Both the position numbers and the translations under genes were made by a program. A stretch of DNA of 34,364 nucleotides from an uncultured Microcaldota archaeon. Lineage in GTDB: Archaea > Micrarchaeota > Micrarchaeia > Anstonellales > Anstonellaceae. Shown piece after piece: positions 1-31,567 of the stretch (the first letter of the stretch is position 1; each line of letters begins with the position of its first letter). Location of the stretch: NCBI GenBank assembly GCA_903892905.1, contig CAITKI010000001.1:1-34364 (forward strand), in the 5' to 3' direction. The notes under the pieces were generated by a model. The model did no database searches and was not told where the DNA came from. It worked only from the letters and a program-made list of their open reading frames with translations.

Positions 1-41
1 GGAGCATTGTGAATCTCAGGGAGTAAATGCAAAATCTGCGC

Positions 42-338
42 AGTGCTTCCTAGCGGAAGCACTTGCTTTAACGACAGGAAGAAAAATTACAAAAATGAAA
101 GGCGGGCAAAGACTTTTAATTGGTCAACGCCCTAGGAAGAAAAATCAGGAGGGCCAGCGTCAAGTTGCCAGAGCAACTTGGCGAGTTCTCCAGCCCTGCT
201 GGAGAATTGTTGAGCGGAGCGCCGCTCAACATGTTTTTGAGCTAGACGAAGCCGAAGCTCAAAACCCGAGCACTAGAGTGCGATGTGCATTTTGCAGAGG
301 CAAAATGCATCAGACATTTTCGCTGAGGCGAAAATGCT
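42..338. repeat. Array of short perfect hairpins downstream of tRNA-His
   Basis: Successive inverted repeats, mostly 8-10 bp with 3-6 nt loops: 42-63, 161-180, 186-206, 209-230, 235-264 (12-nt loop), 286-309, 315-336; a weaker one at 270-281. Confidence 0.85.
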
Positions 339-341
339 GAG

Positions 342-415
342 GGCCAGGGCCGAGATTTGAACTCGGGCGAAGAGCTCCACAAGCTCCCATGCTACCAGGC
401 TACATCACCTTGGCC
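342..415 (-). tRNA. tRNA-His (anticodon GUG)
   Basis: Reverse complement folds as a cloverleaf: acceptor GCCAAGG/CCCTGGC (one A-C mismatch), D stem ATGT/GCAT, anticodon stem GGAGC/GCTCT with loop TTGTGGA, T arm CCGAG-TTCAAAT-CTCGG. An encoded G-1 opposite discriminator C73 fits tRNA-His. TATA-like stretch ~25-35 nt upstream. Confidence 0.93.
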
Positions 416-20485: not shown

Positions 20486-20687
20486 TGGACCCGGGGGGAT
20501 TCGAACCCCCGGCCTCCTGATTTTTTGAGAACCCTTTTTCACTTTTCCGCGACGTGCAAAGAGCGATGCTCTTTGCGCGCACGTTTTGCTCCGCAAAACG
20601 TTCGACGCTTTTACGAGCGAGCGTTTGTTCGGGAGCGAGTAAAAGGGTTCATGCAAATCAGGCGCGCTACCACTGCGCCACAGGCCC
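20486..20687 (-). tRNA. tRNA-Ala (UGC) with ~130-nt intron at 37/38
   Basis: Reverse complement: acceptor GGGCCTG/CGGGTCC with G3-U70, D stem GCGC/GCGC, anticodon stem CCTGA/TCAGG, loop TTTGCA|intron|A, T arm GGGGG-TTCGAAT-CCCCC, discriminator A. Intron 20522-20651; BHB: TTTG/CAAA central helix, CAT and AAA bulges, GAACCCTTTT/AAAAGGGTTC inner helix. Confidence 0.92.
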
Positions 20688-20824
20688 ATTATTCTGTCGG
20701 TACCTGGGGGTGAACCATCAGGGGGAAGCTAATGTTGTGCTTCTGCCCCCTAGGGTGCCACAGGCCCATTGTGGTCTTCTTGGAAAATAAAGGCTTTTTA
20801 TAGGTACGCCCCAGAACTTCAGAT

Positions 20825-24633: not shown

Positions 24634-24647
24634 TGAATTTGACTCCG

Positions 24648-24683
24648 TCAAATGCTGGAGAAAATCGTTCTGATTTTCTCCAT
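24648..24683 (-). CDS. Leader micro-ORF (MEKIRTIFSSI)
   Basis: ATG preceded by GAGGTTAGGAT; duplicates the MEKIR start of the downstream regulator gene. Confidence 0.3.
   Translation of the reverse strand: MEKIRTIFSSI
24657..24681. promoter_or_regulatory. Perfect 10-bp inverted repeat in regulator leader
   Basis: ggagaaaatc-gttct-gattttctcc; a second palindrome TTTGAC-tcc-GTCAAA is at 24638-24652. Confidence 0.7.
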
Positions 24684-31499: not shown

Positions 31500-31567
31500 T
31501 TTGGGCTTGTTGCCCAAATCTAAAAAACCCCGCGAGGGGTTTTTTATCCTTTGCCCCCGAAAGGGGG
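31500..31567 (+). promoter_or_regulatory. Three consecutive hairpins in a 5' leader
   Basis: TTTGGGC-ttgtt-GCCCAAA (31500-31518), AAAAAACCCC-GCGA-GGGGTTTTTT (31522-31545), CCCCC-GAAA-GGGGG (31554-31567). Confidence 0.8.

Follow-up and report, generated by a model that had tools for sequence, protein, structure and literature searches.

The cluster of short hairpins beside tRNA-His in the window (the whole 34,364-nucleotide stretch of an uncultured Micrarchaeota contig that was analysed) is probably, at roughly three chances in four, a nest of miniature non-coding mobile elements built of paired DNA hairpins and lodged at the 3' end of the tRNA gene in Micrarchaeota related to Ca. Burarchaeum. 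On alignment with copies elsewhere, positions 283-340 are shown to be one copy of a dispersed element, here termed type I, and the array to have a copy of the tRNA 3' end on either side. The features are listed in Table 1.

Table 1. Features of the hairpin array and its surroundings at the start of the window.
Feature	Positions	Strand	Basis or remark
Right end of insertion sequence (IS), terminal ...AACGCCCTA	1-133	+	Contains hairpin 42-63; outside the tRNA array
T-rich stretch (minus-strand CTGATTTTTCTTCC), likely the tRNA-His 3' flank before displacement	134-148	-	Seen in the sequence; flanks in relatives
tRNA-His 3' end repeated at the far side (minus-strand CTGGCCCTC), bounding the insertion	149-157	-	Direct repeat of 339-347
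Hairpin CGTCAAGTTGC-CAGA-GCAACTTGGCG	158-183		89% motif match at G003:C25:81512-81548
Type V two-hairpin module, stems TGTTGAGCGG/CCGCTCAACA and TTCTCCAGC/GCTGGAGAA	183-234	-	Alignment with 8 other copies
Hairpin TTTTGAGCT (12-nt loop) AGCTCAAAA	235-264		Possible counterpart of the type II TTTTGGC..GCCAAAA hairpin
Type I element ATG-(TGCATTTTGC AGAG GCAAAATGCA)-TCAGA-(CATTTTCGC TGAG GCGAAAATG)-CTGA	283-340	+	Covariance model R1, 69.4 bits
Near copy in the tRNA 3'-end duplication, running into the tRNA gene	339-347	-	Repeat of 149-157
tRNA-His (GTG), insertion target	341-414	-	tRNA annotation

With a perfect hairpin defined as a stem of at least 8 and a loop of 3-8, such structures were found at 42-63, 161-180, 186-206, 208-231, 286-309 and 315-336. 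Positions 1-340 thus hold 6, where 2000 dinucleotide shuffles averaged 0.05 and never gave more than 2, and the entire window holds 13 compared with 2.9 (maximum 6); a density above 2 per 300 nt was never reached in 30 whole-window shuffles. Shuffled sequence, the control named by an earlier sequence-only reading of this DNA, therefore gave no comparable clustering, and all the loops that reading had listed (TAGC, CAGA, AGCG, AGAG and TGAG) are present. The clustering it described is real; a seventh hairpin, at 235-264, has a stem of 9 bp and a loop of 12 nt, and the hairpin at 42-63 is part of an insertion sequence. Sequences 92-100% identical to approximately 130 bp of positions 1-133 recur at five contig ends and in L014, where the copy carries a transposase ORF; since 42-63 lies inside this right end, it does not belong to the tRNA array. 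The insertion sequence, with a DDE-type transposase by inspection and ends TAGGGCGTT/AACGCCCTA, is present in several copies and causes contig breaks.

The array proper, 158-340, is bracketed by the two copies of the tRNA-His 3' end; the repeat GAGGGCCAG, only 9 nt long here, was located at both places where it had been claimed, the near one overlapping the tRNA gene. An Rfam scan of the window returned nothing besides tRNA and 16S rRNA, the latter an archaeal gene at the right end. The stems had been described as unrelated and the array as something other than a sequence repeat family. The opposite was found, in that most of the hairpins in 158-340 recur as families in the own and related genomes, where array hairpins are present as dispersed copies.

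In a search with the region, positions 279-317 recurred many times in the own genome (G000) and in relatives. The type I element is a two-hairpin unit of ~55 nt, ATG-TGCATTTTGC(loop)GCAAAATGCA-TCAGA-CATCG..CGATG-CTG(A), and the consensus of 28 aligned copies is ATG-TGCATTTTGC-loop-GCAAAATGCA-TCAGA-CATCGnnC-loop-GnnCGATG-CTGA. In this alignment TCAG additionally pairs with CTGA, leaving one A unpaired. The stems were paired in 99.5% of 594 pair cells with 40 two-sided and no one-sided changes. A wider set of copies gave 999 Watson-Crick pairs, 7 G-T and 8 A-C. Since G-T is as rare as A-C, though constraint on a single RNA strand would favour G-U, the results indicate that pairing matters or is maintained in DNA; the stem complementarity of type I seems to be kept at the level of DNA and not RNA. 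The type V module, aligned with the 8 other copies, was paired in 100% of cells, 12 of which showed two-sided compensation.

A covariance-model search of draft genomes revealed 23 type I matches in G000, 63 in G012 and 38 in G003, with 16, 10, 9, 5 and 1 in others; the same search returned no copies in three congeners (G007-G009) and none in G010 and G011. Records carrying the element belong to Candidatus Micrarchaeota and Ca. Burarchaeum and include independent assemblies (DeMMO2, Lake Pavin, LFW-242_1 and Ca. Burarchaeum E19). The pattern was unmatched in viral contigs. A single exact match, which may reflect either chance or transfer, was seen in an alphaproteobacterial MAG (SZUA-351; L061 4366-4392).

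Filled and empty sites were compared in order to locate the junctions. A DHH-like gene in G000 and G003 shares an in-frame 54-bp type I insertion (18 codons), and the gene is empty in G004, G005, G007, G008 and G009, reading GGAAAG^AAAAGC or equivalent. Four clear paralogous empty sites, in which another copy of the host repeat or a similar tRNA region lacks the element, were recovered with joined-flank queries covering 5186 of 5980 nt: GTCCGAC^ACCGCC, GATTGTCG^AAGAAC, CAGGGGG^AAGC and TGCGCCA^ACTGC. In each resolved insertion type I has A as its first base, and A also follows in the target, so that any duplication is of one base at most. As read from these junctions, type I is shown to enter precisely, immediately ahead of an A, and to duplicate at most that A. 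All of this evidence for movement is comparative.

By their mapped positions, type I copies are also shown to concentrate at tRNA 3' ends, with some nested in other hairpin repeats. Among the matches listed for G000, G003 and G012, a copy was found within 120 nt 3' of the tRNA at 16 tRNA loci and 5' of it at 2, with 0.23 expected (per-genome binomial p 4e-7 to 5e-11), and the second hairpin faced the tRNA in 15 of these 18 copies. In the window itself the second-hairpin side of the copy is flush with the tRNA-His 3' end. The density of perfect hairpins around tRNAs was 0.8-1.2 per kb in G000, G003 and G012 compared with 0.21 in G007 (~4-5x). Type I copies were found within other hairpin repeats and within each other. 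Targeting of loops was rejected as a general rule: flanks pairing over at least 6 bp were found for 5 of 89 copies where 0.8 were expected, in a test that missed sites whose host stem spans the insertion point; nesting in hairpins is thus enriched without being the rule.

Copies of the tRNA 3' end of 12-17 nt are located downstream of several tRNAs in the element-bearing G000, G012 and G003, and a survey of 28 tRNAs in the element-free G007 revealed no such copy of at least 9 nt. The tRNA-His of G003, 98% identical to that in the window, is without the array, and the gene in relatives mostly runs straight into unrelated sequence that is often rich in T. G004 has three copies of the tRNA-His end with hairpins between. 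A cassette termed type II, which recurs in element-bearing genomes, is comprised of the tRNA end, a short spacer, an inverted tRNA-end copy, a hairpin, CTGTCGC, a hairpin and a direct tRNA-end copy; the rest of the window array matches it loosely, and a type II reading of that part is possible.

The precise, duplication-free joining and the conserved hairpins with one unpaired base suggest mobilisation in trans of a folded single strand. A recombinase supplied in trans would recognise the folded hairpins and paste them without target duplication, either by cut-and-paste or by copying of the folded strand. The bracketing repeats would have come from another process, one duplicating 8-17 nt at the tRNA 3' end and plausibly driven by tRNA-targeting tyrosine integrases, and the window array would be a tRNA-end insertion later entered by type I and type V. 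Enclosed by the tRNA on one side and a T-rich flank on the other, the array is probably transcribed in the form of a tRNA trailer, whose removal by 3' processing would explain why the array is tolerated.

The sequence-only reading had proposed a structured non-coding RNA, a 3' trailer or a hairpin-rich mobile substrate. The last is supported by the dispersed copies, the empty sites, the nesting, the tRNA-3' targeting and the identity of GAGGGCCAG as a duplicated tRNA 3' end; transcription as a trailer is only probable, and the expected RNA pairing preference was not found. The position of the array against tRNA-His, with probable co-transcription, and the strong compensatory variation in its stems are what would be expected of hairpins kept for RNA folding in stability, processing or regulation. 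This explanation is very improbable, since the elements also occur between genes, in a protein gene and beside or within other tRNA genes on either strand, G-U is not preferred over A-C, and close relatives have the same tRNA without the elements. Template switching that perfects imperfect palindromes would produce paired changes without selection and with almost no intermediates, as observed; it is improbable as the origin of the array because it would leave unexplained why copies are dispersed, share their ends and are precisely inserted, although it may still account for drift of the stems. An assembly artefact was considered because the window begins at a repeat-induced contig break and a contig of the same genome (L019 1-142, G000:C17) opens, beside tRNA-Trp, with a perfect palindrome of 142 bp formed around type I hairpins, which may be an assembly fold-back. 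The same elements in independent assemblies from other projects refute that explanation, the chance of which is negligible.

Mobile hairpins remain the preferred reading, and the alternatives within it concern the enzyme. Tyrosine integrases of tRNA-targeting elements may move the folded hairpins somewhat in the manner of integron cassettes, a possible if doubtful route. Integrases are abundant in most copy-rich genomes (11 in G000, 17 in G003 and 3 in G012), several are encoded directly 3' of tRNAs, and the tRNA-end repeats of 12-17 nt resemble att sites; however, type I copies also lie far from tRNAs at varied sites before A, G006 (80% complete) has 9 copies and no integrase match, and G010 and G011 have integrases and no copies. 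The integrase elements showed no clear distal tRNA-end copy in the stretches searched. Tandem integrase genes (~400 aa) with a repeated CTCCCCCTGCATCTTGTATCATGCACTA were observed in L268, where the pair is downstream of a tRNA, and in L274, suggesting stacked integrative elements. It is unlikely that the hairpins are instead REP-like sequences moved as single-stranded DNA by a TnpA-like enzyme of the IS200/IS605 type (Y1, RAYT/REPIN-like). Duplication-free insertion, a hairpin with an unpaired base and the dimer organisation are consistent with such an enzyme, and Y1 transposases are present in G001, G003 and G004; against Y1/RAYT as the driver, type I termini are without GTAG or CGTC, and no Y1 match was found in G000 (88% complete) or in G012, which has the most copies. 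Reverse transcriptase is likewise disfavoured, with RVT_1 present in G000, G003 and G004 and missing from G012. Casposons and CRISPR-like adaptation are similar in the use of tRNA 3' ends as target, a duplication of ~12-17 nt and the tandem arrangement in G004 (L034), but Cas1 (PF01867) was absent from the drafts of G000, G003, G004 and G012 and was rejected as the driver. Since all genomes are drafts, these absences weigh little. No autonomous relative with a gene between type I-like hairpins was seen and no parent transposon of type I was found. A bolder proposal would make the elements a self-nesting, tRNA-3'-homing hairpin family of Micrarchaeota whose folded single strands are mobilised by a tyrosine recombinase with tRNA targets, a gene-free archaeal counterpart of integron cassettes. 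We consider it unlikely. By inspection the GTTRRRY-type core of integron attC is absent from the type I consensus; the integrase counts would include any IntI.

Nested copies and compensatory stem changes occur in fungal double-hairpin elements (DHEs). The DHEs of Allomyces and other fungal mitochondria and the repetitive hairpin-forming elements (RHEs) of sponge mtDNA are short tandem stem-loops, scattered and patchy between close relatives; those of Allomyces are without flanking duplication, and the mechanism was left open with an RNA route suggested for Allomyces (PMC2800124). Type I is similar in having a pair of neighbouring stem-loops that spans a few tens of nt, stems that vary with compensation, and at most one A of flanking duplication. 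It differs in its location on an archaeal chromosome, the conserved ATG..CTG(A) ends, the insertion before A, the concentration at tRNA 3' ends and the in-frame insertion in a protein gene. Type I works like DHEs and sponge RHEs. The elements are very short and variable, and the likeness is likely one of convergence. Rickettsia palindromic elements are small palindromes inserted in frame in protein genes (PMC10969869), of ~150 bp and some ending in CGTC (PMC3733652). The insertion in the DHH-like gene, with its five empty orthologs, is of the same kind, although type I is ~55 nt, has no CGTC end and gave a single in-frame case. REP and REPIN sequences are short palindromes with stems of 5-13 bp and short loops, often dimers and some inside other palindromes (PMC3733652). 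The type I consensus ends in ATG and CTGA with no GTAG/CGTC tag and is not a REP by the definition of that paper. In common with MITEs, type I is non-autonomous, multicopy and presumably moved in trans, but it is without ordinary terminal inverted repeats or target duplication above one base; other tRNA-located hairpin repeats, unlike type I, do show the repeats of 12-17 nt.

Literature searched with partial coverage contained nothing on such elements in Micrarchaeota or other archaea. Short duplication-free hairpin elements have been described in fungal and sponge mitochondria and in Rickettsia; the same design is now seen on a chromosome of an archaeon. Its clean empty sites, its well over 100 copies in the searched genomes and its patchy distribution within one genus make it possible to correlate gain and loss with the responsible enzyme across genomes. 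The elements explain the hairpin clutter that surrounds and in places interrupts the tRNA genes of this lineage and hampers both tRNA annotation and assembly, and type I offers a route for peptides of ~18 residues into proteins.

Two-hairpin modules with other linkers (gc, gcgc, ggacc and gccc) are common in element-bearing genomes. In the window, a tRNA-Ala(UGC) recognised by inspection at 20487-20689 on the minus strand escaped both ARAGORN and the Rfam scan; its intron holds a module with a gcgc linker (20556-20601), also present in G000:C7 (L027). At the 5' end of this tRNA is a hairpin insertion of ~80 bp (CTGGGGGTGAACC..CCCCCTAGGG; 20677-20770) flanked by the 14-nt direct repeat GCCACAGGCCCATT, for which a tRNA-Ala paralog in the own genome (L344) is empty, marking this as a different family, one that duplicates its target. 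Adjacent hairpin pairs with linkers gc and tc are located at 24637-24682 and 31500-31546, and a pair sharing the tc linker is also present in another family of the order (L035). Hairpin insertions were further observed in tRNA T-loops between GTTCAAA and ATCCC (L282, L285 and L039), one with a nested type I copy, and these may be T-loop introns.
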